64,000 nt of DNA from Tribonema minus. Taxonomy: Eukaryota; Sar; Xanthophyceae; Tribonematales; Tribonemataceae. A program made the translations under genes and the position numbers. The notes under the pieces were generated by a model. That model ran no database searches, was not told where the DNA came from, and saw nothing but the letters and a program-made list of their open reading frames with translations. The stretch's first letter is position 1. Each line of letters opens with the position of its first letter. The DNA lies in assembly GCA_017506865.1 (NCBI GenBank), contig JAFCMP010000112.1, positions 124,001-188,000 of the forward strand, in the 5' to 3' direction. Below, piece by piece: positions 25,850 through 62,785 of this stretch.

Positions 25850-27200
25850 GTCCCTGACCTGCAGCCGCGAGCCCGAGAGCTGCGCCGCGAGCTCGGTGTC
25901 CCGCGAGCTCTCACAACACAAACTTCTTTTCCCAGGCCTCTGACGCATTCTTTCAAACTGTCTTGAAGGGTGTATCTACAAAAACAGTTGTCTGGACCCG
26001 AGAGCTGAAGATGAGCTGTCGGGCTCTCGGGCTCTCGGGTGTCGGCTGCTGCTGGCGGGTGTCTACAGCATAACCTTTGTTGTTGTTGGCCTCGTCAAGG
26101 CGACCAGCATCGGTGATGCCATACCATCTTTAAGCGTCAGAAGGAGGCCCGAGAGCTACGCCGCGAGCTCGGTTCGCCGCGAGCTCTCACAACACGAAGT
26201 TCTTTTCCGCTGGAGGCCTCTGACGCATTCTTTCAAGCTGTCACAAAGGGTGTGTCTACAAAAAAGTACTGGACCCGAGAGCTGAAGATGAGCTCGCGCG
26301 GGTCTCGGGTGTCGGCTGCTGCTGGCGGGTTTCTAAGCATGACCTTTGTTGTTGTTGGCCTCGTCAAGGCGACCAGCATCGGTGATGCCATACCATCTTT
26401 AAGCGTCACAAGGAGGCCCGAGAGCTACGCCGCGAGCTCGGTTCGCCGCGAGCTCGCTCTCACAACACAAACTTCTTTTCCCAGGCCTCTGACGCATTCT
26501 TTCAAGCTGTCACAAAGGGTGTGTCTACAAAAAAGTTGTCTGGACCCGAGAGCTGAGTCCGACAGATGAGCTCGCGGGTCTCGGGTGTCGGCTGCTGTTG
26601 GCGGGTTTCTAAAGCATGACCTTTGTTGTTAGTGGCCTCGTCAAGGCGACCAGCATCGGTGATGCCATAGCATCTTCAAGCGTCACAAGGAGGCCCGAGA
26701 GCTGCGCCGCGAGCTCGGTTCGCCTCGAGCTCTCACAACACAAACTTCTTTTCCCAGGCCTCTGACGCATTCTTTCAAGCTGTCACAAAGTGTGTGTCTA
26801 CAAAAAAGTTGTCTGGACCCGAGAGCTGAAGATGAGCTCGCGGGTCTCGGGTGTCGGCTGCTGCCGGCGGGTTTCTAAAGCATGACCTTTGTTGTTGTTG
26901 GCCTCGTCAAGGCGACCAGCATCGGTGATGCCATAGCATCTTCAAGTTCAAGCGTCACAAAGGGAGGCCCGAGAGCTGCGCCGCGAGCTCGGTGTTCGCC
27001 TCCAGCTCTCACAACGCAAACTTCTTTTCCCAGGCCTCTGACGCATTCTTTCAAACTGTCACAAAGGGTGTGTCTACAAAGAAGTTGTCTGGACCCGAGA
27101 GCTGAAGATGAGCTCGCGGATCTCGGGTGTCGGCTGCTGCTGGCGGGTTTCTAAGGCATGACCTTTGTTGTTGTTGGCCTCGTCAAGGCGACCAGCAGTG
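25850..27200. repeat. ~270-bp tandem satellite, five copies
   Basis: The word GACCTTTGTTGTTGTTGGCC (or close variants) occurs at about 26073, 26342, 26619, 26884 and 27161, intervals 265-277 bp. Each unit also contains CTGGACCCGAGAGCTGAAGA, TCGGGTGTCGGCTGCTGCTG, AAGGCGACCAGCATCGGTGA, a GAGAGCTGCGCCGCGAGCTC block and CAGGCCTCTGACGCATTCTT. The copies differ by small indels not in multiples of three, so no frame is shared across all units. In one frame the GAGAGCTGCGCCGCGAGCTC block reads like coiled-coil residues (EARELRREL). The array may therefore have grown from a duplicated exon plus intron. Confidence 0.85.
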
Positions 27201-28080
27201 GTGATGTTTTGTGACTGCTGCGATCCATACCTTTGTTGATGGTTCTACTTCAAGTTCTTTTGGGCAACCTGCACCGGTGGTTGTAGCTGTCGTTACCTGT
27301 TGCATTAGAGGACTTAAGGCGCGAGATGCAGATGATACTACAGGAGCGGGCGTGCAAGATTGAAAAACATGGCTCACTGCCCTACTTGCAGCCAAGAAGG
27401 CGTTGCAGAACTACCGGTGGTGGCAGAGCTATAGCCTGCCTTGAAATTGGCGACGGAGGCGCAACAATGCAGGCAAGGGCAAGAAGTGTGCGCACCACCA
27501 TCCTTGATGAAATGCAGCAAGTCAGCATGCAGACATGTGCAGGAGAAGCCTGACACCACCGTTAATACATGGTGGCCTACTCTTCTCTGTCTTGAGGCTG
27601 AAACATGTTGAGCCCTCATGTAGGGGATGCTCCGACCTCCATCAAACTGATACCCTGCTGATAGCTTAAAGCTTACCCTCTTGCAGTTCCTTTAGCTTAC
27701 GCTGGTGCGCTACTCTCCTACACAGTGCAGGATTGGTGCAGCCTCACACCATCATCTGATTTGATTTGATCATTCACGATTCAACATCAACCTAAAGGAG
27801 GCTTTTCTGCTCTTGCTTTTGCACGCCACGTTTGTTCTACCGAGCGGTAGACATCTGGAGGGAGTGGTTCATCTCTTCCCTCAAGGCACAAAGGCAGGCA
27901 GTTACACGCTCATGAGGAGGACTTGTTTAAGCTGGAAATTCAACAGCAATTGCAAGACACCACTGTGTGAGGGACACCCCCCTACACAGTCAGCCCGTCA
28001 GCCCCCCAATGGTTCCAGCCTCCATAATCACAGCAGAACATGCCGCTCCATGTCAACTTTAGCTGCAGATATCCCGGTCG

Positions 28081-38084: not shown

Positions 38085-41000
38085 CTATGGCCGCGGCGGC
38101 GGCGGCGGCTGCTTCCCTCGTGATGGTTGCCGTTGTTGTTGTTGCCGCGCGGGTCTGGCCCCCTCCGGACCCTCCGAACGCGCTGACCCCTCCGCTCCCG
38201 AAGCCCCCGGAGGGGAGGCATCGTCTGCGTAACCCCCATCAGATGACTCGCCTTCGTCATCGTCCAGCAAGGGGTCCCAGTGCCCCCCTCTTCTTGCCCC
38301 CCCTTCCCGCCCCCCTTCCAGCGCGTCGTAGCCCCCTGCTGCCGCCTCCGCTGCTGCCCCTGAGTAGCCGCCGCCACCGAAGTCGGCAGCGAAGTCGGGG
38401 TCGTCGTCGCTGTCCTCGTCGGCGGAGGAGGACCAGGCGGCGGCTAAGCTAGCGTCGAGGGAGGCGAGCGCATCAGCCGTGTCCGCGGCGTCGCTGTCGT
38501 ACAGGGCGTGCGCCGAGTTGAGCTGCGCGTTGATGAGGTCGAACTTGCCCTGTATTTGGTGGCAGGCCTTGCACTCGGCGATGAGCTCCTCGCGGCGCCG
38601 CGCTAGCGCCGCGCGCGCCTCGGCGATGTCGAACAGGTCCGCCACGCCATCGCCACCATATACCTGCGAAGAGAAGAGGTTGTTGTTTGATGAAAGTTAG
38701 TTATGGGATGAGCGTTGTGTGGGTGAAACTTCAACTTTGTCTGTAACATCTGGTGCACGCAACTGGAGCTCCTCAGCGGCGCCACGCGTACTCCGGCAAT
38801 GTCAAACTGGTGTGCCACGCCATCGCCACCATATACCTGCGATGAGAATAGGTTGTTGTTTGGCAAACGCGAGTCAAGAACTTTGATGAGCTTTTGAAGT
38901 GTGGATGAGACTCTAATGTAATCTTGAACATGAATGCCGCGCGCGCCTCGGCCATGTCGAACAGATCCGCCATGCCATCGCCGCCGTACACCTGTGATGA
39001 GAGCAAGAGAGATCAGGTGTTCGGAGAAAAGTGAGTAGAGGCCATCGATTAAGTTGCACGCGCCGCCTACGCCTCAACAACAGATTGGTGGGAAGGTTGT
39101 GGTACATGTGTACAATTTTTTTTGACTGTGTACAATTTCCACTCAAATTGCTCGTGCTCACAAATGAGCTGCAGAACAACAAGATTGATATGTTGCAACT
39201 CATCAACTGACAACTGTCACCGAAGGCGCCCCTGTATTTGCACTTCATGGCGACGCCCTGGCATTCACAAGTCTGTAGACAAGAGTTCTCTCTGTGGAGG
39301 AACAAGCTGATGTGAGATGTCATGCGTGGTGATTCCATATTCAGTTGTGGTCGAAGACGCACCTTGTCCAGCTCCGCGCGCAGGTAGAACGGGAGCGCGT
39401 CCACGAACGGCATGAGGAAGAAGCAGTTGAAATTCATGGCGACGCCCCTTGCAAAGTGCTCACAATCAAAGACAGAACTACCAAGCATGGTGGGTTGCAA
39501 CCCATTGACGACTGTGACCGAAGGAAGACGCACCTTGTCCAGCTCCGCGCACAGGTAGAACGGGAACGCGTCCACGAACGGCATGAGGAAGAAGCAGTTG
39601 AAATTCATGGCGACGCCCCTTGCAAACTTGCTCACAAATCAAAGACATAACTACAAGCATGATGGGTTGCAGCCCATTGACAAATGTGACCAAAGGAAGA
39701 CGCACCTTGTCCAGCTCCGCGCGCAGGTAGAACGGGAACGCGTCCACGAAAGGCATGAGGAAGAAGCAGTTGAACTTCATGGCGACGCCGCGCACAAGCT
39801 GAACTGCATGATGCACGCTAACTGCATGATGGGTCGTAACTCATGAACTGACAACTGTAACCAAATACGCACCTTGTCCAGCTCCGCGCGCAGGTAGAAC
39901 GGGAACGCGTCCACGAACGGCATCAGGAAGAAGCAGTTGAACTTCATGGCGACGCCGCGCGCAAAGTGCTCCCGCCACGACGCCATCACATGCCTCACGA
40001 GCGCCGCCACCACCGCCCCCGTGCGCTCCGCGTTGCTCCTCGTGCACGCCGCCTCCTCCATCAGCTGCATCAAGTCAAAGTAGTCCTTGTGGTTGACGCT
40101 CCCCGCCCCCCCCAGCCCCGCGCTATTGGCCGCCTGCCACTGGTCAAGAACGTTCTCCTTAGCCGGCGCCTGCTGCTGATTTCGCCCGCCGCTGCCGCTG
40201 CTGGTGCTGCGTCGGCGGCTGCGCTGCTCGACGGCGAGGGAGTAGATCTGGACCATGCTCGTGTCGGGGAGGGAGCGGTGGAGGGCGCCGCTGGAGCGCT
40301 CGTTGAGGTCCCAGGTGACGAAGCGCGTGAGGGCTTTGAGGTCGTCGCGGCACCGCACCAGGCAGTCGTCGATGCTGGCCTGTGAGGCGTGGCATGCAGC
40401 ACACAGGCTGGTGAGCTTTCGTCCAGGTACCCCCGTTAATCCATCATAAGGGAAACATGCAGCCAGCAGCGAGCTGCAACGCACCAGGCAGTCATCGACA
40501 ATGGCCTGCATGGCAAAAAACACACACATTGCACATGTCGGGGAACTGAGCAGCTTTTGTCCGGAACCCATTGATGCTGGTATGTAATCATGCAGCAGCA
40601 GCAGCAGCAGCAGCACAGATGAGCCATGCGTTGATGTTGATGTGTTTTGGGGCTCAGGAAACATGCCAATAAGCTGGCTGTATCCAAGGTCATTGATACG
40701 ACTGCTGCTGCTGCTGCTGCTGCTGCTGTCGTTGCTGGCTGTGTGCTCATGTGAACTTCAACGTCAACAGTAAGTAGCACACCAGATCATAGCTCAGGCT
40801 GATCATGGTTCAGGCAGAGTGCTCCTTCGTACCTCAATGAAGTTCTCGTAAATGCGGCGCACGATGAACGAAAACGGCTTCTGGCGGCTCTCGCTCGCTC
40901 ATGACAGCTTGAGCATGTGCTCCAGACGCCAACCTTAACTTCAACAATAGCACAAAACCTCCAAACCTGAGGCAAAGGGCTCATGGTTCTTCGTACCTCA

Positions 41001-44000
41001 ATGAAGTTCTCGTAGATGCGGCGCACGATGAAGGAGAACGGCTTCTGGTGGCTCTCGCTCATGCTCAGCCCCTCGCGCTTGAGCATGTGCTCCACCACCG
41101 CAAACAGCCGCTTCAGCACGTGCACCGCCCTCACGCGCAGGCTCTCCAGCAGCGGATCAAACCCCAGCCGCGCCTTCTCCACAGCGATCACGCACGCCGC
41201 GCGCATGAAGTTGACCCCGTCGTGCATGTCGCCGATGCCTGCTGCGTTGGCGATCTCGTCGTCCGTGATCTCCGGGGAGGGCATGTGGCGCACCGCAAAG
41301 GCGAACTCGCGCAGGACGCGGTGGTACTGCGCGCCGCCAACGAGTCGGTGGTTGGTGTTGCCCACCTCCACCTGTTGAGCATCAGGTCAGGCCACAATGA
41401 GAGGGTCAGTGTTGGAGACACGCTGCGTTGGCGACCTCGTCGTCCGTGATCTCCGGAGAGGGCATGTGGCGCACCGCAAAGGCAAACTCGCGCAGCACGC
41501 CGTGGTACTGCACGCCGCCAAAGAGTCTGTGGCTGGTGTTGCCCACAGCCACCTGGTGTGTCAGGCCAGCCACAATGAGAGTTGGTTCTTGGACACATGC
41601 AAGAAGATGAGGGAAACATCACATTGGCAATCTTGTTGCATATTGGTCATCTCCGGAGATGGCATGTGACGTGCCATGGTTGGTTGCCCACCTCCACCTT
41701 TATCAGGACACGCCAATGGTGATGGTCAGTGGGGCACTCAAAATAAGTCCAGAACTGGAGATACCAAAACACAGGTGCAGGACAATTTGAACCGTGATGC
41801 AAGGAGAAGAGTTGAGCATAACCATGCCAAAATGACAGAGTACGCTGCATATATGCGAGATGCCTGAGAAAGGCTTTACGGCCTACGTGCACCTTGCCAA
41901 CAACTTCATTCACACAATGAAATGAAAATCAGCAACAGCAACAGTCATCACATGCATGAGCTTTTCTCATTTGCTGTATAGCTGTACACGCGCCCCACAT
42001 ACATGCAGCTTCCCGGCAATCTCATGGGCAGGAAAGGTGATTCGGCTGAAACGATTGATCGTGAATGATATATGCTACAAACAGTAGGTGACATGTGGTT
42101 GAAGTCCAACCTCTATGTGAGCCTCCTCCACTTGTCGCCATCTACCTGCCCAGCATCCACAATGCTTCCCGGCAATCTTGCGGGTAACAGACCATTTTTC
42201 ACAAAACAACCAATAGTCTGGAACGCTACACACAATTAGTGACATGTTTGTTGAAGACCAACCTGCATGAGCCTCTCCCACTTATCGCCATCCACGCGCC
42301 CAGCATCCACAAAGCTTTCCGGCAATCTTGTGGGTAGGAGAGGCAATCTTTGGACTGCAACAACCCATCGTAAACAAGCCATCTACGCTACAAACAGTAA
42401 GTGACATGTTATTGAAGACCAACCTCCATGAGCCTCTCCCACTTGTCGCCATCCACGCGCCCAGCATCCACAAAGCTCCCCGCCTGCAGCTGCTCGCTCT
42501 CCAGCGTCTCGCCAAACTGGTCGGGGGGGGCATGTATGGTACCCTGAATGGCACTGCCGAGCGCCCGCACAAAGTGTTCGCGGTACTCCTCTGCACTGGC
42601 CTTGAGCTGGTCGAGACTCAGTGCCTGCGAGCACAGGGAGGATGATGTGAGTGTGCCGGGTGTGTGGATGTGCAAGTACAACATGGGGCGTGGTATGCTG
42701 CTATGGGTGTACACAGCCATACTGAAGAGTGATATAAGAGTGCATCGCTGGACAATGGGGTCTTGCACAAGGTCTATTTTGTAACAGTTGTAACAGTTTG
42801 TAACGGTTTGCTGGTCAGAGACCAAGAAGTTGTGGACCGAAGCCTCATAATGACCAAGTGTTTTAAATGGCACTGCCGAGCGCCTGCACAAAGTGTTTGC
42901 GGTACGGCTCTGCGCTGGCTTTGAGCTGGTTGAGGCTCAGTGCCTGCGAGCGCAGGGAAATATGCATTGATCTCCGTCAGTGTGTGAGTACAGCATGGGA
43001 ATTGTGGTATGCTGCAATGGTTTACATGACCTTGCTTGAGAGTGGTATAAAAGTGCAATGTTGGCATCATCTATGCTCAATGTCAGCATGAATGATGCAC
43101 AACGCTTCTGGTGTTCGCACTCTATATTGGCAGTATCGCGAGGCTCTCAGTCTTATACTAGCGTGCAAGGTGTTTCTCACTGTCGCTAACCACAGTCTGA
43201 ATATCACTGATTGTTCGGTGACTCCGTTAAGAGGCGTCAAAGTTACAATTGCGACCCTAGTTCAAACCCTAGTTCAAACCCTAGTTCAACCCACTCATAT
43301 TTGTTGAGGCATTACAGCAAATCTACTTCAATCCTAGTTCAAACCTTAGTCCAACTCACCGACAGCTCGCGTTCCGTTGACAGCAGCCGCCCCTCTGCCT
43401 TGGTGAGCTCGCGCTGCAGCAGAGGCACAATGCGCGCCACATTTCGTCTGAGAGCACACAGAAAACACAGCAGTTGTTAGCCAGGCAGGCAGAATGTGAC
43501 TAAACAAGTGCTATGGTGCCTCACTCAGGTCAGGGTGTGTATGCCACATTTAGACTTTGAACACACACACAGCAATGGCAGCACACTCAGGTCAGGGTGT
43601 GTATGCCACATTTAGACTTTGAACACACACACAGCAATGGCAGCACAGCGAAACGCCGCTAGAAAAGCGCACGCACGGTGTGGAGGGTGGCACATGCTCA
43701 CCGCCCCTCCGCACTGATGAGGTGCAGATTATGTTGAGAGCAGGTCTACCACTTATCACAGGCTCATTTGGATGGCATCATCCAACAGTGACACTACATC
43801 TGTTGTAGATGACCAAGTACACGCGCACACATTATAACAAAATCGTCCTCACTCAGGATACCACAAAGCACAAAGCACGCTCCTGTAAGAGCGAAAGGAG
43901 TGCCTACATGATTTTACACGTTTCCAACTTATTACAGCACGACGCGCCGGAATGGCTTTCAGCATACCTCTCAGGCACCAGCGCAATTGCGACAACCCAG

Positions 44001-44394
44001 CAGTCTCACTGATGTACCCAAGACACGTCTATAGCGCCCCCCCCGCAACCGTGTCATGTACTTCAAGTAGTACTTCAATCAAATCTTGAAGTGTGATGAC
44101 CGGCGCTCACTGATACACCTCAGCCAAGAGGACTTCAAATGGGCTGAATCACATTCTTCAAGTGTGACGCACCGGTAGCAGTCCTCGACGCGCCGTTCCA
44201 GGAACCGGCGCAGCCGCGACACCCCCACGTGCGGCAGGCACTGGGTGCCAGCGGTTGGCCCCAGCTTTGCTGCCACGTGCATGGAGTCATCTCTTTCAGC
44301 CCGCCGCACCCCCGCCACGAACGCCTCGTTGCTGAAGTAGGCCGACTCTCGCCCGCGGCCCACCCTCCCCGACGGGACACTCGTGAAGAATGGT
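38085..44394 (-). CDS. DRP5B: Plastid/peroxisome-division dynamin (ARC5/DRP5B-like), GTPase N-terminus not found
   Basis: At least six exons are joined by phase-matched splice sites: 44394-44173, 43447-43360, 42624-42424, 41370-40997, 40379-39873 and 38663-38085 (TAG). The peptide follows plant ARC5/DRP5B closely: PFFTSVPSGRVG, then VSRLRRFLERRVEDCYR, IVPLLQREL, APPDQFGETLESEQLQAGSF, VGGAQYHRVLREF, IGDMHDGVNFMRAACVIAVE, CRDDLKALTRFVTWDLNERS, KFNCFFLMPFVDAFPFYLRA and a GED-like end, DLFDIAEARAALARRREEL. In the family this protein assembles on the cytosolic face of the division ring and constricts the organelle. The visible part covers the end of the GTPase domain, the stalk and the effector region. 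P-loop and G2-G4 exons were not seen upstream to 46 kb, so they are either beyond long introns or lost. The protein ends in an acidic, Gly/Arg/Gln/Pro-rich tail absent from plant relatives. Introns are full of partial exon copies. Confidence 0.85.
38641..39005 (-). repeat. Dynamin last-exon head copied twice (155-173 bp period)
   Basis: The acceptor and first ~45 bp of the final exon (GTATATGGTGGCGATGGCGT ..., residues VYGGDGVADLFDIAEA) recur in the preceding intron. The word GCCA(C/T)GCCATCGCC lies at 38641, 38814 and 38969. The copies read VYGGDGVAHQFDIAG and VYGGDGMADLFDMAEARAAF, and each keeps an upstream TC-rich stretch with a CAG-type acceptor. They then decay into intron sequence. Confidence 0.9.
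39361..39965 (-). repeat. Dynamin exon tail present four times (167-172 bp period)
   Basis: The genuine exon end (residues FNCFFLMPFVDAFPFYLRAE then LDK, donor AAG|GTGCG) lies at 39873. Near-identical copies with donors lie at 39704, 39532 and 39361. ACCTTGTCCAGCTCCGCGC on the + strand marks each one. All three intronic copies keep the amino-acid sequence almost unchanged (K to N, F to L or R to C at single sites) and are uninterrupted. That is more conservation than expected for neutral intron sequence unless they are very recent. Confidence 0.95.
40355..40510 (-). repeat. Copy of the exon-40379 head
   Basis: GCACCAGGCAGTC(G/A)TCGA occurs at 40355 (true exon, residues ASIDDCLVRC) and at 40481 (copy, AIVDDCLVRC), 126 bp apart. 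Both are preceded on the minus strand by a CAG acceptor. A (CAG)n tract lies beyond the copy at 40590-40620, with its complement at 40700-40730. Confidence 0.8.
40831..41070 (-). repeat. Copy of the exon-40997 tail (164 bp)
   Basis: ACCTCAATGAAGTTCTCGTA occurs at 40831 and 40995. The true exon end encodes SFIVRRIYENFIEV before the donor GAG|GTACGA, and the intronic copy repeats this and about 80 bp of upstream coding sequence. The copy contains a small duplication that breaks its frame. Confidence 0.9.
41241..41670 (-). repeat. Copies of the exon-41370 head region
   Basis: The block encoding EITDDEI.NAA back to the exon start (VEVGNTNHRLVGGAQYH) is repeated at 41422-41552. GCTGCGTTGGCG(A/C)(T/C)CTCGTC lies at 41241 and 41422, 181 bp apart. 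A more decayed third copy lies near 41640-41700 (ATCTCCGGAGATGGCATGTG). Each copy retains a CAG-type acceptor at its 5' end on the minus strand. Confidence 0.9.
42008..42510 (-). repeat. Copies of the exon-42424 tail (150-160 bp period)
   Basis: The true exon end encodes SFVDAGRVDGDKWERLME with donor GAG|GTTGGT. Matching blocks with the same donor lie near 42261 and 42109, and a still more decayed one lies at 42008. GCTTCCCGGCAATCT-like sequence marks the units at 42008, 42164 and 42314. Copies 42261 and 42109 keep the donor and the Asp-Gly-Asp-Lys/Lys-Trp codons with small changes. Confidence 0.9.
42547..42965 (-). repeat. Copy of the exon-42624 head at 319 bp
   Basis: AATGGCACTGCCGAGCGCC at 42547 (in the true exon, ALSLDQLKASAEEYREHFVR) reappears at 42866. 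The copy includes the CGCAG acceptor and the codons for ALSLNQLKASAEPYRKHFVQ. The spacing equals two units of ~160 bp. Confidence 0.9.
43522..43645. repeat. 61-bp direct duplication in a dynamin intron
   Basis: CACTCAGGTCAGGGTGTGTA to CACACACACAGCAATGGCAG is present twice in direct succession, virtually identical, so the duplication is very recent. A separate short run of ACCCTAGTTCAA units lies at 43255-43290. Confidence 0.95.
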
Positions 44395-44750
44395 CTGGAG
44401 GACAGCAGCATTGACATTATGATTGAGTAAGGCCGTGTGTATACATGCATATGTATAGGGTTCTCCTGGCAACGATCTGTGGTTGGCGATGACAAGAAGA
44501 AGCTTGTACGCTGGTGTAAGAGGGAACTGAGAGCCTCACATACTCCTCGTACATGTCCAAACATAACCTGGTAAATGGTGTAAATGTTTCCTGACATCAC
44601 CTGACCGCTCTCCCTCGGAGAGAGCTGCCACATCTGCGCCGCATGTTAGGCGCATCTATGACGTAAAAAAATCACACTGTCACAACTCAGTAACCCTCCG
44701 AGGAGCAGGGCGGACACTTCAAGAGGGACACTCGTGAAAATAATGGTCTG
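44080..44750 (-). repeat. Copies around the exon 44394-44173
   Basis: The exon tail/donor region is echoed at 44088 (TTGAAGTGTGATGACCGG versus TTCAAGTGTGACGCACCGG at 44157). The exon head with its acceptor (GGGACACTCGTGAAGAATGG at 44374) is echoed at 44725 (GGGACACTCGTGAAAATAATGG), 351 bp away. Between 44.75 and 45.6 kb only short frames occur and no GTPase motif was found. Confidence 0.75.
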
Positions 44751-45648
44751 GTGGACAGACAGTGAGCTGCCTGGATGTCTGTGCATGTTCTCCAGCGCCG
44801 TGCTTGGTACAAGTTGAAAGAGTCTACCATGTAGCAATGATACCAGCTCATCCCATTGACACTCTCCTGCGGATGTTGTGATGACAACAGCAGCAGCAGC
44901 AGCAGTGGTCCTTCCTGCATGTGCTTGGTAGTCAGGAGTGCAGCAGGCTTGCCGCCAGCATGCGCAGCGTACGCGTGTGAACCATGACAACGTTGCTGAA
45001 GCCTAAGCTCATGTGGCCTTGGACTAGAAAGTCAAGGATGTCTGTATACTTTAGACGAGTTAGATTTCCCAGACGGCGGGCGTCGCGCATGCGATCCCAA
45101 CATTAATGCAGCGCATGCGTGAGGCCTGCAGGCTTTGTGCAGCAATCCAGTAACTTGCAGTCAATCGGCCAGTGTGAGCCATGCGACTCAGCCAGTGTGC
45201 ATGGGTGCACATGTGTGTGTAGCATGGGTGTTGTGTAACCTTCGGTCAATCATCTAGGCCTTGCAGCAGAATGTCAGTGTAGTGAAACGTGCATACGTTG
45301 CAATGCAGCGCACGCGAAACATGAAGTGCCAGTGGCCCGGCTGCATCGAGCATGTTCGCACTGAGACCTATTTAGTGCGGTGTAGCAGCATGTATGGTAC
45401 TCAGATTCTCGTGCCAACGGTTGCTGTGACACACATAGACTTGAGCTCCTTAAGCTCAAAATGATGAAAGTAATGGGAGTGTTGTGCTCCTAAAGCGCAG
45501 AATAGTACAAGCATTGAAGAGGGTTGCAGGGGAGGCCGGTTCAAGTTGTTTTGAACAGCGTTTATGATACCATGTTGAATGACACGTACGTGCTAGGTGT
45601 AAAGGCGTCCATGACTAACAGCAGACAGGTGCCTTCCTGACCTGCTGT

Positions 45649-46437
45649 TTGCCATCGCTGTTGCCGCCTGAACTACAGCTCCTGCTGCTGTTCTTACAAC
45701 GGCACACAGCAGTGAGTCTTCAACAGCAGGCGCAGCATACCGCAAACCATGCTGTTGCTGTTGGCTGGCTGCTGCTTTCAAAATTTGTCATTCGCGGTGC
45801 TGGTGTAGCTGCATCATGGCTGAACACCAACTGCTGCTGCAGTGCCCCACCAGCACTTCTGTGTGCCACCTACAGCACTGCTGCTGCTGCCTGCTGCTGC
45901 GCGGCAGCATCTCTCGCCTGCTATGCTGCTGCTGCTGTTGCTGCTGTGGCTGATGTCACTTCCCTCAACACTGCTGCACCCGCCAGCGTGCCAGACACAA
46001 CCTCTGCTGCTGCAACGCCCGCTTTGCTTGCTTTCCTGCCGCCTGCGAAAACGTATGCTGCTGCTGCTGCTGCTGCGCTGCAGCACCTCTTTCCCTGTTT
46101 ATACTGCTGCCGTTGTGGCTGCTGCTGCTGCTGTCACGACTACCAACTCAGCTCCTGCTTCGCTTCGAACTTCAACAGAATGAATGACGAACAACCAAAC
46201 ACTTTTTTCTTCTTCAACTGCCCAGCATCCCCCTCGCACGAAGTAGAGGGCGTGCACACAGGACGCCCGCCGACAACGGCATACAAACAGCACGGCCGTG
46301 CTGAACAGCTTCCAGGGACTCAGGCGGCTCCAGGCTCGAGCAGCTATGACCAGTGTCTGGAAGTTCGGGAGAGCGCCTGCCGCTGTAGACGCTACAACTT
46401 GTGGCGTTGGCTAAAGTGCGCACGCGCCTTATCATAG
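45649..46437 (+). other. CTG/CAG-rich low-complexity open stretch
   Basis: The + frame is open for 262 codons but consists mostly of Ala, Cys, Leu and Gln runs from (CTG)n DNA. The reverse frame is equally open. No domain is visible, so I treat it as compositional rather than a gene. Its last third (NDEQPNTFFFFNCPASPSHE ...) is less repetitive and could be an exon. Confidence 0.35.
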
Positions 46438-46894
46438 TTCAGGGATGCATCCTGTCTTGCTCCTTGTGCTAGGTGCGGCGGTCTTCACGGCTGGTGCCCC
46501 CCCACCCCCCTATGCTGCTCGGCATCAGCTGTGCACCACCTCACAACCACATGGCTTGCTGTTGCCCCTGGCTGCTGCAAGCTGGTCCTCCATGCTCTAC
46601 GCGCGCATGTGGACATCGAGATGTCCAAAGTTCCCACTGCCATGTTCTGGCCATCATAGTGAGAGACGATGGTGAAGCAAGAAGCAGCCTCGGTGCTGCT
46701 GGGGCATGCGAGGTTGTCACCGCTGCACTGCTCCGGCACCATCCCTGGCTCGTCTGTTTGAAATAGGCTGCTTCATATGTATCAGACACGTAAGTGCGAC
46801 CGCCTCCGCCACGCCGCCAACTTTGAGCACAATGCACTCCATGCTCTCATTGCACTCCACGCTGATGCAATGCCCCCTTCCCCCCCACTTACAG

Positions 46895-49531
46895 GCCCTG
46901 ATTGCCGAGAACAAAGACCCTGAGAGCGCCGCCGCAGCAGTGCTCGCGCCCCTCAACAAGGCCACCGTGCGCGACGAGGCCGCCCTCGCGGCGGAGCGCG
47001 ACCGCCTCCGCCGCGCCGCCGACATTGAGCTTGAGCTCCGTGGCTGCATCAAGACCCTAGAGGGGCAGCTCGAAAGAAGCGCAGCCTCAACACAGGCGGA
47101 AGCGGCGGAGGCGGCGGCGGCACGTGCAGCGGCAGCGCGGACTTTGAGAGAGAAGGATGCGATTGCGAAGGCGGCTGCGGCAGCGGGGGGTAGGAGGGGG
47201 GGGGGATGGGGGTAAGGGGGCGGCGGCGGTGGCGTAGTTGGAGGGGGTGCGTGCGCGGGTGTTTGAGCTGGAGGAGGAATGCGCGGAGCTGCGGAGGAAG
47301 GCAGATGTGGAGATATTCTCGCAGGCATGGTGTACAAGCGCAGGACGAGAGATGTGCACGACCATCAGTATTGCTTGTTGGTGGGTGGTGTAGTGTTAGT
47401 GTGATTTTGGTGCCATTTGTTGCGGGAGCTGCCTCGCGGCACGGTCTGGCACTTGTAAGTGCATAGAGTGAAACTTTATGTGACGGTGGATGTAGGAGAG
47501 CTGGGTTGTGCAGTGTGCACGCGGTGTGTTCACAATGCATCGGCAATCAAGATCAAACGTAGCACGAAAAGCTGAGTATGACTCTATGTCATGCAGCGAC
47601 AGTCAGCCTTAGGGTGGACTCCTGGATCCATGTTAGACCACTAGTGTACGTGAACTATGCGATATTGCAACAGCAACTGATTTTTGTGAGATTGTATGTA
47701 TGCATGGGCAACGCCTGCTTTAAAGATGCGCACACATGCTGGCGTGTCCATGCAGGCATTCAAGCTGTTGCAACAACGCAGGGCTTACAGAGAACCACAT
47801 GCCTTCAGCAACAGCTCTTTTCCTGTGTTCCAGTGCACTTCTTATTTCAGTGTCGTGCATCGTATCCTGGACGCTGTGTTGCCAACATGCACCCGTATCT
47901 TCTCGTGTGGTACAACAAGGGGCTGTGTCCGAGCATGTGCGGGTGCAACAGTTACACCAGAGCGTTTACAGTCGAACTGCTGGAACTGCCTGTGGTGTTC
48001 AACGTGGTGGTGTACCTGTGCAGTGGCACGCACTGTTGTGCTAATAGAGCCTCACACCAGCACCAGCAGCAGCACCATCAGCAGTCAGAAGCGTTGCTTG
48101 TGTCTGATCAGACTTCCCGATCTTTGCCAAGTCTGCGTGTGTACTGTAATACATAGCCGCCACACACACACAGTGCCTCACACCAAAAGCAGCTACACCA
48201 CTGCCACGCAGATGTGCAGATGTGCCAAAGTTTGGCTCAGTGCGATGCTTACGCAAGCGTGTGCGCCACTTCTCATGTTGCCAAGTACACTACATGCTGC
48301 ATCGCCAAAAGAGCCCTGGCATATTCCTCTGAAGTATTCAAAGTGCAAGACCAAATACGTAGAGACATCAACATGAGAAAAGCGCAACGAGCACAATGCT
48401 ACAACAGCGTGGTGCCTTTTCCTCCTGTAGCAACGTTCACTTCACGACGGTACTGAGAAGCTTGCATGGCATTTTACAGTCTGAAGAGCAGGCCCAGTGC
48501 TTCACGGACATACCGCACATGTCTCTTATCGACTCCTCTGGTCACCATGTCAGCTTTGTACCCCCCTATCATACTCAGACGCTTGCATGGGATGTCATTA
48601 GCGCAGATAGATCACCCAGCGTGTCACGCGCGAGCTGCGCTTGTCGCTTATCCAACGCCTTTCTCATTGTATGCGGCAGAGCGAGTCCCTCAAGCGCCAA
48701 GTCAGCGCTCTGCGGCTGCGGCCGGAAGAAGCAGATGCGGCCGTGGAGCAGGCAGAACGGCGCGCGCGCGCGCCACCGAGCAGCGCAGCAGGGGGACAGG
48801 GCTGCTGGCAGAGGAGCAGCTGTACCTCGAGGCAGAAGCGCTTAGGGCCGAGCTTGCTGAGGCCCGGCACCGCTGGTAAGTACTTTTACTTGTAAATGTA
48901 GGTCCACAACCTCCATGGCCTGACCAGCTAACTACAATTGCCAATTTGGTGAGGACTATGACGATCCTTCATGGAATGTACATCGCTGCTTTCTTGAATC
49001 CTGCTTGTATGGTTGTCAATACAGTTATGGGATAACACCGTGTGTATGCACACGCATACACATGCTGACACGTATACACGCGCATGAGCATAAGGGGCGG
49101 CTGGCGCAGGCGCAGGCGCAGCTGTGCTATCAGGCAGTGCTGTTGTGCCAGCTTGTTGAAGAACGGCAGCACGGGGGAGATAACCACTTCTGTTCAATGC
49201 GAGCATTGCACTGTGCACATATAACTTTGCTTGAAGGCGTGCGCAAAGTGTTCAAAGCAGCCGCGAGATGAAGGAAAACTTGCTGGATGCATCCGCCGTC
49301 TTGGACATAAAAGCAGCGCGACCTCGAGCGCATGCCGAGATGCACGCACCCACGCGTTTGACTCACTTGGAAGTACAGTTCAAAGCAGCTGAGCCTTCAT
49401 ACACAACGACACCTGCTCAATGCTCTGCATTGCAGCCGCGAGATGGAGGAGGACCTGTTGGAGCACGACGCGGCCGCCATCGCCGCGCGCTTCGACATTT
49501 ACTCATGCAAACGCAACAAAGTGCGCAAGGT
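46895..49531 (+). CDS. Coiled-coil protein, partial multi-exon model
   Basis: After a pyrimidine tract and ACAG at 46894 comes a coding block ALIAENKDPESAAAAVLAPL ... RLRRAADIELELRGCIKTLE, a long heptad-rich helix, to about 47189-47210 (donors GTAGGA or GTAAGG). The next block, from 47238 (acceptor GCGTAG), reads LEGVRARVFELEEECAELRR. Another, about 48676-48878 (donor CTG|GTAAGT), encodes SESLKRQVSALRLRPEEADA and LLAEEQLYLEAEALRAELAE in two frames separated by a (GC)n run. Later blocks are 49082-49190 (GRLAQAQAQLCYQAVL...) and 49434-49530 (REMEEDLLEHDAAAIAARFD ...). Together they suggest a large myosin-tail-like or centrosome/flagellum-type coiled-coil protein of unknown identity. The start and the 3' end are not determined, and the exon 1 to 2 phase does not fit perfectly, perhaps because of indels in G-runs. 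Confidence 0.45.
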
Positions 49532-50295
49532 TCAATGCTGGTTCTCGCCCATCATCTGCTAAAGTACTTGGTCCCCCTGGTATGAAGAGTCACTGCATAA
49601 CTTCCGCTGGTGAGTACTTTTACATTTTGGGAAATGTACAACACGTAAGGCTCTCAGTTATTTTTTAAACAGGCGTGCAGCTTCTACTTACTATCGCTCA
49701 CCACAGGTCTTTGTATGTAGGTCCACAACCCCTCATTGCCTGGCCATCTACACTACTCCAGGCTTTGGCAAGTACCTCTACAATCCTCTACGGAAACGTA
49801 CAGCGCCAATTTTCAAAACTCCGTTGTATGGTCGTCACTGCTCGGATACCATCGTGTTCATGTACCATACATTACGGGGCCTAAGATACCTCTCTTGTCA
49901 ACGCCGGCTTGAGATTTTTTCAGAACAGCGTTTCTCACATGGCGTATGAGGGGGAATCTTATACAGCATACTGTGTAAACTATATTATCACCTTGCAAGG
50001 AAACCAAACTCTTACCTACATTCCCTGCACATCGCTATAAGGAACGGGAAAGCAAACGATATGTACTTAGCGATGGTAAGGAGATGCCCAAAGGCCTTGC
50101 GCCCTTTGTCTGCATTTCCATGGTCTACCCGTGCCTTATACAATGGTACTGCCTTGTACCCCATGATGTACGGTACACGTGCATAAGCATAAGGGCGGCT
50201 GGTGCAGGCGCGGCTGTGCTACCAGGCACAGCGCTGTGCGCCAGCTTGTTGGAGCGCGGCAGCACGGGGGAGATCACGAATTCTGTTCAGTGCGA
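49081..50295 (+). repeat. Exon copies within the coiled-coil gene
   Basis: The block CATAAGGGGCGGCTGGCGCA ... CGGCAGCACGGGGGAGAT (49089-49180) returns at about 50184-50275 with small changes, 1.1 kb away. Separately, the head of the exon at 49434 (GCAGCCGCGAGATGGAGGA) has a truncated copy at 49257 (GCAGCCGCGAGATGAAGGA), 175 bp upstream and including the acceptor. Part of exon 1 (GCGACCGCCTCCGCCGCGCC at 46998) also has an upstream echo at 46796, 202 bp away. Confidence 0.85.
49611..49760 (+). repeat. Dispersed intronic repeat carrying splice signals
   Basis: This segment starts with a donor-like GTGAGTACTTTTAC and continues with AAGGCTCTCAGTT, ending in ATCGCTCACCACAG. Relatives of the second half lie at 43139-43197 (GAGGCTCTCAGTC ... 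GTCGCTAACCACAG) and 59208-59272 (AAGGCCCTCAGTT ... ATCGCTAACCACAG). Directly after it, TGTAGGTCCACAACC ... TGGCC matches 48897 and 36537. The CTAAC followed closely by CACAG resembles a branch point plus 3' splice site. Confidence 0.6.
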
Positions 50296-50897
50296 GCATG
50301 ACTCTGTGTCCGTGCTGTCTATTGGTGGTTCGGCCTTTGAATGGTAGTACATGTGAGGGGCTGTTGCCGTTCCACTTTCAGCGTGTTCATTAACTGCTAT
50401 AATTACGGGCGACCACGCAGTGGGGCGTTTATCTAGCAGGATGCTACAGCAGGTCTCATTGTTCAGGGGTACAATAGCGATCAAATTCAACTGGAAGCGT
50501 GTACCAGAGACGACGTAACGATTGACTTTGAATGAAATCGTATCCCAGACGTGGAGACAACGCTGAAAAGTGCCAAAGATGCTGCAGCAAATTGAAGTGC
50601 GTCCATACTAGCGGCTGAGCTTGAGCGTCATGCATGTACACTTTGTGTTGCCCAAGCTTCATGGGCTTTCTGGTAAAGGGTGAAGGACCACTGGCTTGTG
50701 CGGACAGCACTGGGTGCGTATGCTGGAGGCTGCAAGTATTTGTCAATCGTTCCAGTCTGCCTCGAACGTTCCCGCCTGCCTCAAACGTTCCGGTCTGCCA
50801 CAGTCAATCTTGAACTGTGGAGGTGAAATGCTTGCAAACTTTAAACGTTAAGCGATGCTAGCAATGCCGAATAAAATGACAAAGAGCATGATGTGTT

Positions 50898-51575
50898 GTG
50901 GCAGCATACTGTGCTTTGTGTCAAGGAACGCTGGAAGATGGTGAAATGCTTACAGCCAACTCCAACTGCGGGCGTCAACACGAGACCAACCGGATAGGAG
51001 GACTTGTTTACGCATCAGAGCGGAGTAGTGAGCAGGTGTTGCGAGTCAGGCAAATGCAATCAATATATGCTACTCAAGCACATGTCGCACTTTTGAATAT
51101 CTTGCAACATACTAACATTGCGGAGTTTGAAACATATCGCCGCTCTCACCTCACGGCCATCCCATCATTGCAATCATATGCAGGCCCATACGATATCGTC
51201 GGGTGCAAGCGAGGCATTTCAAGCTAGCTGAAAGCTGCAGCACACCCTCACGAATTGCCAGAGAGCCCCGGTACAAAGCAGCTGGTGTGCGCCACTTACA
51301 GCGAGCATTGCTGGCGACACATCTGGCTGCAAGGGCCATACAAGCAAAAGGACGCAAGTGGGCATCGAACTGCTGTTGTTATCTGCGAATTTCATGTGAT
51401 CCGAAGCCTTTGTTATCGGTGTGTTGTGAAAACTGGCAAGTGTTGTGTGTGTTGTGAACAGTTACTTACATATGCCGAAGGCATCGTTGTAAATCATGAG
51501 CCTGATTCATACACCTGGGGGCATCAACCATGCGATCAATACCGCTCAACTGGGATGTCAATGTATCAGCAGTAG
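50898..51575 (+). CDS. Possible exons with zinc-finger-like cysteines
   Basis: After GTGGCAG at about 50903 the frame reads AYCALCQGTLEDGEMLTANS then NCGRQHETN. A second block at about 51290-51575 ends CCVCCEQLLTYAEGIVVNHE ... GHQPCDQY before a TAG. Both have the C-x2-C ... C/H-x2-C spacing of RING- or PHD-like zinc fingers and could be a duplicated pair. No complete gene model is possible. The interval 50.3-50.9 kb and 51.6-52.8 kb holds no other supported gene. Confidence 0.3.
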
Positions 51576-52004
51576 CTGCTGTCAGAGCGTTGCAGTCAAC
51601 GCGTTGTCGATCATCAAATTGAAGTAAAGCACTTGCAAATGATCAGACTATTCAATGTTGCTGCAGTTGATGTAGCTGGCATAATGTGCGTTCATGCATG
51701 TCTGCTGTTTGTGGAAGCGGGCATCACTGGCCCCTGATGCGAATACGTTTGAGGATGAGGTTGTTTGTTCCTGCGACTGATGCATACATCCTGAGCCACA
51801 CGGTAGTAAAAATACTACAAGTTCGTAGGCACAGACTTCATTTCATAGCAGCACAGCATGCCCCCATGCACTTTTTAGATGTTCCAAGTTCAAAGTATTA
51901 TCAGTATTTATGTGCGTTAGCAGGAACCATGATCATTCAGCATTTAGCCTGATCGATGTTATCCCTGTGCGTTGTCGCAGATTTCGTGGCAACTCCAGCA
52001 GCAA

Positions 52005-52140
52005 GGTGGCGCGTTTTGCAGTTGCAAACTCTGCCTAGTACCAGGCGACCATGGCCGTGGCGATTCCAGCATCAAGATGGCGCGTTTTGCAGTTGTCAAC
52101 TCTGCATGGTGCCAGGCGACCATGGCTGCCCAAGTAGTCA
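52005..52140. repeat. ~71-bp tandem duplication
   Basis: GGCGCGTTTTGCAGTTG ... AACTCTGC ... CAGGCGACCATGGC occurs at about 52007 and 52078 with few differences. It appears non-coding. Confidence 0.8.
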
Positions 52141-52804
52141 TAGTACCTGCAACATGCGATCGCAGCACGGCAGACGCATGCCGTCCAGATGTGCACACAC
52201 CACTGTTATGCCAAGGCACCCCGTTTTTCCACCAGCAACCTTATCGATGACTGCCTTTCTTCCTTTCTTCTGCTCATGTGCGTTTCTGACTTGTGCGCCA
52301 CCATGTTGAGTGTTAGCTGTGCTACCATTTGAAATTTGCAACACACTTGACCAGTACCAGTGTCGAACTGTGAGGTCAACACCGAGTACACGCACAGGCG
52401 GCAGCACATGCAGGAGTGCACAGCCCGCTCAGCAGTTTGTTCAGCATGTGTTTTTACAGGATGCCCTGCTAAACCTGATTCAATCATCAATCATTAGCAC
52501 TTCAGTATTACGCATTGCAGCAGTTGCAGCTGTGATCCCCACCACGGCACCGTCAGCGAAAAAACATGACACAGAGCGCCTTTAACTTGATATTTGCAGG
52601 ACAAGGCTGGCCTCAAACAACATGTGACAACGCCATGTGTATGCTTACAATTGAACACAAGTGGCTTACTTCTGATGTATGCAACGTTTCATGCCAGGAT
52701 GTATGAACTGAACAGCAAAAGCAGCAGCAGAATGCTTCAAAGTGCATCATAAAAATTCTTGTGAGTTACACACGAATTATACTCACAAGTGGCTGCTGAT
52801 GTCT

Positions 52805-55800
52805 CTACGCTTTGGGCTTCTTGCGTGCCCCGCCCGTGCTGCCCTTGTTGCGTTTCCCCACCGTGTTCTGAGTCCGCCGCTTCCTGACATAAGGGTCATG
52901 GGTGTTGCCAGCAACAATGTCGCGCATTGCCTCAGCCAAATACCTCATGTTGTCTACTCCCCGCTGTGGTGGCAAGGACTTAGCGTCTGCAACTATGGTC
53001 TTGGCAATGGCCCAAATCTCAGCATGAGCCATCTCAACACTAGTCTGCAAGGGCTCATCTAATGCTGCTACCTCTTCTCAATCACCGTCGAATGCGGGTT
53101 GAGTGGCATCTGTGCCAGCAGCATGGTGCTTTGCAGCAAGACCCACCACTTTGGCCAGCGCTACCTGATGACCAGCGCTGCTGGTGATGCAAGCCGCTGC
53201 CTGGGCTGAGGAAGGACGCAGCCACCTAGGGTTGGTGTTGCGAAATACAGCATCTGCAGCTGCTATGGCGACATGCAGGCATCGTGGCCGGCCAGACGCT
53301 GCAGGATTTGATGCCAGAGGTGCATCACCCACCCCCCGCTGCGCAACCATGTCCGCCCCACCCTCCCCCTCCCCACCGCTCCGCAGAGTGAGTTTGTTCT
53401 GGCTAGGGCTTACTCTGCGTGCAGCCTTGAGCACTCGCTCTGCTGAGCTCTGCGGCAGCCCTTGCAGGCGGCGACAATCTATGGCAGTGATGATGTCGCC
53501 AATGGCTGTAAGCTCTGATGCTTCGGCAGCAAGCATGCCACCATTCTCCGAGCGCGTGAACGCTTCTACGATGACCGTGCCATTGCCAAATGCGAGCTTG
53601 ACGCCGAGGCCCTCGCCCTTGCGCATGCACAGCGTTACCTCAAAGGCATCGTACGCGGGCGCTGCTGACGCTGCACCGCTTCTGTTGGCAGCGGTGGCGC
53701 CTGCTGCGCATTCTCCAGGCGCCTGCTCGCTGTCCCCGACCCCCGCCCCCGCCCCCTGCCCCTGCCCCGCCCCCTGCCCCTCCCCCCCTCTTCCCTCAGC
53801 GGGGTTGACTGCCGCCCCCTGCCCAGCCCCCTGCGCCTCCCCCGCTCCCCCCCCTCCTCCAGCGGTGATGACTGTCACCCGCGGCAGGCAAGCGATAATG
53901 TGACGGCAAAGCAGGCCTGTCCGTATGGGGTCCAGACAGCTGCACATGGCAGCACCCGAGGCAGCCACCACCACCGAGTGCTGTGAGCACCCTAGAGTGG
54001 ACGTCACTGCAAACCACTCCTGCTCTGCAAACACTGGGGCGCTGCGTGCAATGGCCTGCAACATGCCCTCACTTGCCCTCCGACTATCATTATCATCTAA
54101 TGTTGCGTCAGGGTCGCCCTCCGGGGCTGGTCCTGAAACGCAAACGGATGCGCAGCAAGGCAAACAGAGGTTGCTTTAGCAAATGCTTGAACTGAAACCG
54201 TATGATATCGCTTGAAGCAGAACGTGAATGCCTGCAGACACGCAAAGGAAGTGCAGGCCGCTTTAGCATCAGGTTTGCCACCACCACGCAGTGCACGGCG
54301 CCTCCTTGTGACCTTCATGGTGATTGCATAGGGCTGAACAGGCAAAACAAGAATGAGAATAAGGCAGGTGCTGTTTCTCATGAAGAGCTTGGTGTTGGTT
54401 GCAGAGGGTGGAACAGGTGAGACAGTGAGATACGTATGCAATCAAACTTCAAGTCCGGCTCAGAAGAGTGAAAAAGGTTTCCACACAAAGTCGAAGAAAA
54501 AGTAGACATTGGCCTTCATACAGTGGCACTGTACTTATAATAGCGGATGCATTATGACCATAGTCCCTGAGTCAGGCGAGCCCGACTTTGGGGGGGGGGT
54601 GTTACAATGCAGGCGGGGGGGGAGGGGGGAAACAAGGTTGGCTAGCCAAACGAACCAACAGGTAAGGGCACTGCGTTGAGCAGAAAGGCTATTGACCTTT
54701 GTTGGCTTTAAATTTTGTGTACCCGATGTGTTTGGCGCATGGACATTCAGTACCAGTGTTTGAGTACTATTATGGGTACCAAAATATACGCATATCTGCT
54801 GCGGCATTGCTGATGTGTTGATGTCGTTGACAACCCTGCAGGTGTACCATGCGCATTGCTGCGCACCGTGCCGTCGGCAAAGGGGGGCTTTAGGAGGGCT
54901 CTGACTCCGCAATCATGCCGTGTGGTCTCACACAAAGATGGGGGGCATCTAGAACGGGGGGGGATAACGCAAATCCACAATAAGGGTTTGCTGTGGTCCC
55001 CAGGTGCGTGTGGTGCTCATGATCCCGCATAGTCTGACGTACCTGAAACGGTCTCGCGGCCTTCATCCACAATCTCCACATGATACCGCGCTGCAGCGCC
55101 CACCTCCTGGGCAATGTGCTTCAGGCAGTGCAGAGTGCCATGATGCTTCGCCACCTCCAGCAGTGCCCCGTAGATGCTGCGCAGCGCTGCATTGATGCCG
55201 TTCACAGCCACGTCCAACGCACGGGTGCTGGCCTCCATGTGTAGCTGGTCTTCTGCGCGGTACCTGGCAGTGATGCGGCCGAGGGTAGTGTTGAGGGAGC
55301 ACAGCGTGCCCAATTTCTCCAGCTCTGCCTTCAGCTTGGCGAAGTACCCCTCGCAGTGCTGAGTAGAGTTGATGCCAACGGTGAGGACGCCAAGCCGGAA
55401 ACAGAATGCCCACCGCCTGCGGATTGCGTATATGGTCTGGTGGAGGTACGTCACCACTTCCCCCTCAGCTTTTCCAGCGTCTGCAAGGCACTGGTGCAGT
55501 GCTTGCCACGCCGATTCGAAGCAGCGCTCCGTGGGCGCTCTGGATGCCAGCCGCAGATGCTGCTTAAAGTCCTGTCAGTCGACATGAAAGGAAATCACCG
55601 ATGAATATAATGCTTGCACAGAAATGATCATACTTTCAACAACCTGGCTATGTCATGGGTCAACCGAGCAGGTGGATGGTACAAGAAGTACGCAAGGCTC
55701 TTCGAAAGGCTGTTGCCTCTCGTGCACACAAACGTGGAAGCTTTTTGGTTGTTGCCAGACGAACCCTATGAAATGGCGCACATGATCGACCTATTTCAAA

Positions 55801-61627: not shown

Positions 61628-61849
61628 CTACTCGGTCAGCACGTGAAGGAAAGACGGTTTGCTGGCGCGCAAACACACACACAAAAAAACAGCTGCCGCA
61701 AGAGTGCGGCAGCGCGCACGTATGACGTGGCTGGCCTGGCCCAAACATAATGTGGGCCAGGGCTGGCCCATATATGGAATCCGCTCATCGGCTCATCGGA
61801 ATGAGCGACGTGTCCGACCCAATGTGTGCAGTGTCAGCGTATGCGTGCG

Positions 61850-61990
61850 CTCATCAATGTGTGTACCCCTATGCATGCTCATCAAAGTGTCCACCCCTAT
61901 GCATGCTCATCAAAGTGTCCACCCCTATGCATGCTCATCAAACTGTCCACCCCTATGCACGCTGATCAAAGCGTCCAACCCAATGCATGC
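61850..61990 (+). repeat. 28-bp minisatellite, about five copies
   Basis: The unit TATGCATGCTCATCAAAGTG-TCCACCCC repeats from about 61870 to 61980, with one to three changes in the outer copies. Because 28 is not a multiple of three, successive units are read in different frames. It lies immediately before the likely start of the next gene and may be a promoter or 5' leader minisatellite. Confidence 0.9.
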
Positions 61991-62546
61991 AGGCGCTCGT
62001 AGCTCGGTCAATGAAGTGCTTCGGCAGGTGCTGGTGCAAGCAGGTCCCGACTTCATGGATGAAGTGGTGGCGAGTTTTGCAGAGCTGCAGCGGCAAGGGA
62101 AGCTCAAGGCGTTGGAGGTAGTGGAATGTGAGATTAAGGCTGTTGAGCAGGAACTCGAGGTCCGCTGCATCGCTCTGCAGAGCTTGGTGGGTTGTCCCGC
62201 GGATTTGACGCAGCAGCTGGTGGACAGTCGCGCGGATATGGAATTCGACCTCGCATTGCGTTACCTCGAGTCTCGTCAAGATGAGGCTCATGATGCTCTG
62301 AAGGAGAATGTGTGCTTCCCGTCGTTTGACCCTATAATTGCCGCCGATGAGACGTCTGGCGACGGCATGGGCATTGAGGGCAGCCACAGGGCGAGCACTC
62401 TGAGAGCACCAACGCCCGTGCACAAATATCGCAGTGCATCACTGCCTATCTTAGGTACAACGTGCAGCGTACAGTATAGAATGCGGCTGCGGACACGGCC
62501 AATATTCCTTCGGGGTCTAAATTGTTTGTTCTGTAAAACATGGTGA
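61983..62546 (+). CDS. Small helical protein, unknown family
   Basis: The start is taken at ATG 61983 (MHAGARSSVNEVLRQVLVQA), since everything before it is minisatellite. The frame encodes about 187 residues. The stretch ~15-110 is strongly helical and acidic/leucine-rich (DEVVASFAELQRQGKLKALE; RADMEFDLALRYLESRQDEA), a possible coiled coil. The C-terminal part (GMGIEGSHRASTLRAPTPVH ...) is disordered-looking. It may be followed by an intron near 62454 (TTAGGTACAA), so the last ~30 residues are doubtful. It diverges from the transposase-like gene, with ~350 bp between first exons. Confidence 0.45.
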   Translation: MHAGARSSVNEVLRQVLVQAGPDFMDEVVASFAELQRQGKLKALEVVECEIKAVEQELEVRCIALQSLVGCPADLTQQLVDSRADMEFDLALRYLESRQDEAHDALKENVCFPSFDPIIAADETSGDGMGIEGSHRASTLRAPTPVHKYRSASLPILGTTCSVQYRMRLRTRPIFLRGLNCLFCKTW

Positions 62547-62785
62547 TGAGCAGCAGCGGCTCCACGCCTGCATACCGACATAAAATCCCTCCCTTCCAGT
62601 CCCACACTATTTACATGCGTCATGCAGCAGCACACCTTGTGCTTCACGCCAGTACCAGCTGCAGGCTCGCGTACTGTGCTACAAACGCTGCTTATGCAGC
62701 ACATTGAATGCTGGCGCAGCCGGCTAAGGTGTGTAGCAAGTGTCGGCCTCAGCTACTCAAAGAAGCTGACTACATGCAACCTCAT

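Follow-up and report, generated by a model that had tools for sequence, protein, structure and literature searches.

Partial exon copies in the introns of a dynamin-like gene

Where do the partial repeats of coding sequence found in the introns of a dynamin-like gene of the yellow-green alga Tribonema minus come from, and what have they done to these introns? The gene lies in a stretch of 64,000 nucleotides (contig C112:124001-188000, hereafter the window) of an assembly of 158 Mb in 554 contigs. A splice model places six exons on the minus strand at 38085-44394, with GT/AG at all internal borders and all exons joining in frame. The spliced six-exon protein (P0001) is 100% identical to a partial hypothetical protein of Tribonema minus over a match that spans the exon 6 junction, the sole residue outside this NCBI protein match being the first, which is read from placeholder bases. 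P0001 has 382 homologues, and many among the 120 listed carry PF00350, identifying its middle and C-terminal parts as dynamin-domain-like; the narrower label DRP5B may apply. Exons 1-4 appear constrained, with dN/dS of 0.03-0.06 against the paralogues described below. The exons, the copies of their ends and one further repeat are as follows, with positions counted in the window.

38085-38663, minus strand: exon 6, the last, ending at the stop codon and with a canonical acceptor (splice model; protein P0001 across the junction)
38779-38836, minus strand: copy of the exon 6 head with acceptor, lag 173 (repeat finding, alignment; 83% identity)
38936-38991, minus strand: copy of the exon 6 head with acceptor, lag 328 (repeat finding, alignment; 89%)
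39363-39461, minus strand: copy of the exon 5 tail with donor, lag 510 (repeat finding, TRF, alignment; 94%)
39534-39633, minus strand: copy of the exon 5 tail with donor, lag 338-339 (repeat finding, TRF, alignment; 93%)
39706-39797, minus strand: copy of the exon 5 tail with donor, lag 167 (repeat finding, TRF, alignment; 97%)
39873-40379, minus strand: exon 5 (splice model)
40473-40505, minus strand: weak copy of the exon 5 head with acceptor, 33 nt, lag 126 (below the score threshold)
40833-40924, minus strand: copy of the exon 4 tail with donor, lag 164 (repeat finding, alignment; 93% outside gaps)
40997-41371, minus strand: exon 4 (splice model)
41422-41552, minus strand: copy of the exon 4 head with acceptor, lag 181 (repeat finding, TRF, alignment; 92%)
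41646-41671, minus strand: remains of another copy of the exon 4 head, some 200 bp further on (repeat family D16)
42118-42171, minus strand: copy of the exon 3 tail, lag 311 (repeat finding, TRF, alignment; 87%)
42263-42316, minus strand: copy of the exon 3 tail with donor, lag 161 (repeat finding, TRF, alignment; 96%)
42424-42624, minus strand: exon 3 (splice model)
42866-42943, minus strand: copy of the exon 3 head with acceptor, lag 319 (repeat finding, alignment; 90%)
43360-43447, minus strand: exon 2, with no copies of either end at threshold (splice model, alignment)
43522-43647, no strand: wholly intronic 62-bp tandem duplication with identical copies (TRF)
44173-44394, minus strand: exon 1 of the modelled part (splice model)
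44726-44747, minus strand: weak copy of the exon 1 head with acceptor, aligned over 21 nt of the exon, lag about 351-353

Repeat finding and TRF recovered the arrays where a first-pass annotation of this DNA had described them, at spacings of 173 and 155 (38.6-39.0 kb), 171, 172 and 167 (39.3-40.0 kb), 164 (40.8-41.1 kb), 181 with a weaker one of about 200 (41.2-41.6 kb), 150 and 161 (42.0-42.5 kb) and 319 (42.5-43.0 kb). All copies stand in direct orientation, those of exon heads carrying the acceptor and lying in the preceding intron, and those of exon tails carrying the donor and lying in the following one. Ten aligned copies share 83-97% identity with the corresponding part of the exon, i.e. 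they differ from it by 3-17%. The individual copies that had been claimed were found again, but the exon 5 head copy at 40473-40505 and the exon 1 head copy at 44726-44747 are weak; likewise, the statement that nearly every intron is filled holds for four of the five introns but not for the intron at 43448-44172, in which no exon copy reached threshold. Local direct repeats cover 17-63% of each intron of the gene.

Exon-end copies in a sample of the genome

A wider sample comprised 28 random-sample loci from other contigs (20 of 10 kb and 8 of 5 kb, together 240 kb) and eight loci around other dynamin matches, giving the window plus 36 loci. Exons were predicted by a codon model and a simple gene finder, both trained on the sample itself; as a caution, on the window gene this finder placed 8 of 12 exon borders exactly, missed exon 2 and called four copies exons. 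For predicted exons of at least 100 nt, an exon end was scored as positive if a copy with a score of at least 50 lay in the next 1 kb of intron. Copies were detected at 31 of 245 exon ends, compared with 0/245 for reversed introns, 0/245 for inverted introns and 1/1225 for foreign introns; exon-end copies are far above chance. These 31 include a coding repeat (L014), a mirror of another positive (L007) and a copy that the finder took for an exon (window 41435), the removal of which leaves 28. One locus, L005, overlaps L013, and was kept in the 245-end survey and in the whole-sample period count given below, and dropped from the later random-sample counts.

At least one positive exon end was present in 13 of 33 loci. 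Restricting the survey to random-sample loci gave 20 of 188 exon ends and 10 of 25 loci (the L014 case included). The rate of positive ends varies among loci beyond what label shuffling produces, with 35 of 2000 shuffles reaching as high a value. The proposal of the first-pass annotation that duplication lengthens introns in this genome thus extends to many genes as far as the copies are concerned, and net growth is their probable consequence. A shared mobile element was considered as a source of the exon scraps, and was rejected on the single positive among 1225 foreign introns. Some sequence is shared with another locus by 23 of 94 tandem clusters, a count in which paralogous and overlapping loci are included.

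Independent events in three paralogous genes

A DNA search identified two paralogues with the same exons, on C157 (L038) and C490 (L039), in both of which the five introns of the window gene occupy the same positions. Copies were found at 6 of 11 exon ends in the window gene and at 7 of 15 and 9 of 15 in its paralogues, a total of 22 of 41, against none of the 41 in reversed-intron controls for the three genes. Of these 22 ends, 20 also carry a copy in one or both of the other paralogues. The arrays themselves differ: the exon 3 head has copies in all three genes at first lags of 319, 187 and 143, as does the exon 4 head at 181, 161 and 153 (the window gene being named first in each case), and copies of the exon 1 tail number four in L038 and two in L039, the window gene lacking them. 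At the ends of exon 2, copies were detected in none of the three. The share of a single intron covered by local direct repeats ranges from 0 to 68% across these genes.

Compared with the exons of all three genes, 37 of 41 copies resemble their own exon most, three tie and one is closer to the exon of a paralogue; at bases that distinguish one exon from the other two, copies match their own exon 86 times, those of the paralogues 35 times and neither 8 times. By this affinity for the own exon, the tandem duplications are fairly recent events that for the most part postdate the gene duplications and took place anew, independently, in each gene. The divergence between exon and copy at codon positions 1 and 2 is about 0.076, set against a dS of 0.61-1.03 between the paralogues.

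Composition of the duplicated units

The head-to-tail arrays hold both exon and intron parts. Homology between the intron flank of a first copy and the original flank reaches p<0.01 for 20 of the 41 first copies that could be tested; another 8 fall at p 0.01-0.05, and for the remaining 13 (p>=0.05) homology is undetectable. Intron parts of copies are more diverged and richer in gaps than exon parts. A similar disparity is seen between two intronic copies, where exon-derived sequence is less diverged than intron-derived sequence (182/1414 vs 742/1724). A looser alignment narrowed the disparity: five copy-copy pairs gave identities of 0.81 in the exon part and 0.76 in the intron part, and 46 others gave 0.78 and 0.71, with the exon part the better in 28 of 46. 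The simpler reading is that this gap probably stems from indels and misaligned intron sequence (a comparable aligner gives random pairs an identity of about 0.70), which leaves part of it unexplained. The idea that exon parts are preserved between intronic copies was set aside in view of the looser alignment and of the codon-position result given below, with a residue remaining.

Among first copies with an exon identity of at least 0.93, 6 of 19 have no detectable intron homology, which is not what simple recent duplication predicts. Candidate explanations are later deletion, conversion by the exon, or a further mechanism confined to the copying of exon sequence. That the nearest copy in an array is the youngest was not established: 12 arrays agree with such an order, 5 contradict it and 4 are ties (p 0.14).

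Origin of the copies

In our reading, short tandem duplications have repeatedly spanned splice sites and lengthened the introns, and the copies are what is left of them; we give this reading a probability of roughly 0.8. Short tandem duplications, with units mostly of about 60-230 bp, recur at many places in the genome. Where a unit straddles a splice site, one copy would continue to serve as the exon end, and the other, made up of a scrap of exon, a splice site and a piece of intron, would be left inside the intron; being spliced out with it, this surplus copy would leave the protein unchanged and would be spared by selection. Each event would add one unit to the intron, and further rounds would build arrays of two to four copies that subsequently decay. 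The splice site of the original exon presumably remains in use throughout, such that the net effect would be intron growth. As to the molecular cause, our guess is that the duplications arise when offset nicks are repaired or when unprocessed replication flaps are ligated, either of which might fit a size limit near 200 bp.

The first-pass annotation had also considered that the copies serve as alternative exons. In a wider form of this reading they would be retained as alternative or decoy exons, for a role in some messages or in the regulation of splicing. Consistent with this, 54 of 76 copies retain the splice dinucleotide where homology places it, the self-trained gene finder reads four copies in the window gene as exons, and the exon parts of copies are better conserved than the intron parts. 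Yet the intact share of 71% is not above the neutral expectation of about 85% (for 7.6% divergence, before misalignment), and the substitutions tell against a coding role. Across 76 copies in 43 arrays, the copies of one array not being mutually independent, mismatches between exon and copy number 110/115/224 at codon positions 1/2/3, of about 1480 each, vs 68/19/327 of 882 each between the true exons 1-4 of the paralogues. A 1:1:2 ratio is the expectation for a freely drifting copy beside an exon that changes at third positions only; the bulk of the copies is unconstrained on this measure, which indicates that they are neutral relics rather than alternative exons. In agreement, dN/dS is 0.34 between exon and copy as against 0.06 between paralogous exons, the copies are partial, and their lags show no in-frame excess (remainders 0/1/2 modulo three: 24/31/21). 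In-frame stops number 5 in 1424 codons of the copies. The value of 0.34 is lower than the approximately 0.53 expected for a fully free copy, for which conversion by the exon, mutation bias or weak constraint are possible causes; substitutions between exon and copy comprise 219 from GC to AT and 135 from AT to GC. The alternative-exon reading was therefore not borne out for the bulk of the copies, and we regard it as improbable, although selection acting purely on the RNA may be compatible with these results. More improbable still is an assembly artefact, in which the copies would be collapsed or repeated reads. The assembly has given cause for doubt, Tribonema minus having been dropped from one analysis for assembly quality (PMC12459048), but misassembly would yield near-identical copies, and nearly all copies differ from their exon, by 3-17% in the window gene, and the paralogues carry different arrays.

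Spacing and placement of the duplications

The spacing of the copies bears on a further proposal of the first-pass annotation, namely that breaks in the linkers flanking one or two nucleosomes are repaired by duplication, such that the spacing equals the nucleosome repeat or twice that length. In the window gene, 8 of 10 spacings do fall in the range of 150-180 bp that had been claimed, and the lags of 319 and 351 are about twice this length. The 76 successive spacings as a whole are mostly 65 to 230 bp, with 7 below 90 bp, 11 in 90-119, 17 in 120-149, 21 in 150-180, 10 in 181-210 and 10 above. Outside the window gene the clustering dissolves, only 13 of 66 exon-end spacings lying in 150-180 bp compared with 17 in 120-149, and the tallest 20-bp stretch being 118-139 (16 spacings; scan p 0.15). 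For 66 non-coding clusters from the 28 random-sample loci (240 kb), periods in 30-bp bins from 60 to 210 bp number 16/12/11/14/5, with few beyond, the fullest bin thus being 60-90 even though short units are under-counted owing to the minimum match length required. In 20-bp bins from 60 bp, the same periods number 9, 12, 7, 7, 15, 3, 2, 3 and 1. The tallest of these, 140-159, rises above neighbours of 7 and 3 and also holds 19 of 94 cluster periods in the whole sample; this hump is non-significant against a smoothed null (scan p 0.41), and is a weak hint of a preference near the nucleosome core length and not at the claimed 150-180 bp. Units seldom exceed about 210 bp, as a nucleosome-bounded event would have it; the drop beyond this length has no obvious cause in detection and is a size limit on the units. 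Together with the different spacings of the paralogues at the same exon ends, the missing peak at 150-180 bp among exon-end spacings outside the window gene leaves the nucleosome link unsupported in the limited amount of sequence sampled, and we consider it unlikely, though less so than alternative exons.

Recurrent tandem duplication also leaves the question of whether exon-intron edges are merely where duplications are tolerated and recognised, or are hot spots that provoke them, through co-transcriptional structure, the GC/AT step or splicing-coupled nicks. The 66 random-sample clusters are non-coding tandem clusters spanning at most 1500. A predicted exon border falls within the span of 30 of them (within the aligned blocks of 23), whereas random placement within the same locus yields 19.0 (sd 3.2), and 30 was reached in 1 of 2000 placements; for the whole sample, 39 of 92 clusters contain a border vs 25.3 expected, which was reached in 1 of 500. 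Provocation at edges would also agree with the sharing of 20 of 22 positive ends between paralogues, the heads of exons 3 and 4 having copies in all three genes and exon 2 in none. However, an exon pinned by selection keeps old duplications recognisable for longer, and duplications inside exons are removed, so the excess at borders needs no targeting and is no proof of it. More than half of the clusters (36 of 66) include no exon border, and purely intronic duplications of similar size occur alongside those at exon ends. We therefore hold hot spots to be a possibility, somewhat doubtful yet well ahead of nucleosome-spaced breaks. Slightly better placed, and offered tentatively, is the broader conjecture that hyperactive short tandem duplication (units mostly of about 60-230 bp), provoked at exon-intron edges, is a main source of intron length in this genome, with exon ends shedding copies repeatedly.

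Relation to known sources of intron sequence

Intron growth is usually explained by transposons. Under tandem duplication across splice sites, new intron sequence would instead come from the ends of the exons of the gene itself. Duplicated, mutually exclusive exons likewise place repeated exon sequence next to the original; unlike these, the copies in Tribonema minus are partial and lack coding constraint.

Tandem duplication is an established source of new introns, as set out in a review (PMC3443670) and in a report on a potato case (PMC4974935). As described there, intron creation likewise involves a short direct duplication in a gene that splicing hides from the protein, the duplicated segment making a new intron, in the standard model from exonic AGGT. 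In Tribonema minus, by contrast, the introns pre-exist, being at the same positions in the paralogues, and the unit carries an existing splice site and lengthens the intron, in many genes. Introners, for which an association with nucleosomes has been reported, likewise change introns genome-wide, but there it is one element that is copied into many genes (PMC9860276); the scraps described here match their own exon and, in the survey above, almost never an intron of another gene, and they have no element ends that might bear target-site duplications or terminal inverted repeats. Satellite-like tandem repeats of about 160-190 bp, such as those of Daphnia pulex (PMC3152781), are similarly arranged head to tail with a similar unit size, whereas the arrays in Tribonema minus are gene-specific, of few copies, include exon ends and are not concentrated at one size. 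Links to nucleosomes have been described for introners (PMC9860276) and for 171-bp repeats (PMC3152781), and it was these that made the spacing of the copies worth examining.

A search of the open-licence literature returned no description of introns lengthened by exon-end duplications; the difference from the known cases lies in the lengthening of introns that already exist, out of the exon ends that flank them, in many genes and repeatedly. Since selection keeps one copy unchanged, single duplication events can be identified, assigned an age and counted, and with three paralogues serving as repeated independent trials, the lengthening of introns by duplication becomes measurable. There is also a practical consequence for annotation, as gene finders may call such scraps exons in the Tribonema minus genome, as our self-trained one did.

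Further observations on the surveyed loci

The window copy of the dynamin gene may be truncated. No N-terminal GTPase domain was found for it: of 17 PF00350 matches none lies on contig C112, and blastn of two GTPase-bearing loci against the window gave no match, a comparison that a diverged or split exon could escape. No GTPase-domain exon was seen upstream of the gene at window 44400-64000; both paralogues have PF00350 about 5 kb upstream (L007, L008). The NCBI protein matching the window gene is likewise partial. In addition, L038 and L039 each have one extra intron inside the sequence of window exon 5 (39873-40379) and another inside that of exon 6 (38085-38663), both of which the window gene precisely lacks, a pattern as after intron loss, or as after gain before those two paralogues split.

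Repeats of other kinds were also encountered. A 276-bp tandem array of about 4.9 copies with 90% matches occupies window 25871-27206, and a dense array with units of about 158-169 bp at L031 2077-5000 is partly related to window 16213-16552. A survey with Pfam profiles scores best candidates only and cannot count scraps. At L037 (C157:538501-541500), the tail of the Helicase_C profile occurs three times in a row at C157:539404-539933, with lags of about 181 and 193, and self-alignment of this locus gives direct repeats at lag 181 among others. Finally, contigs C90 and C179, and C144 and C223, have paired kinase matches at matching relative positions, which suggests haplotigs or large segmental duplications; these pairs could show whether the arrays differ between alleles.
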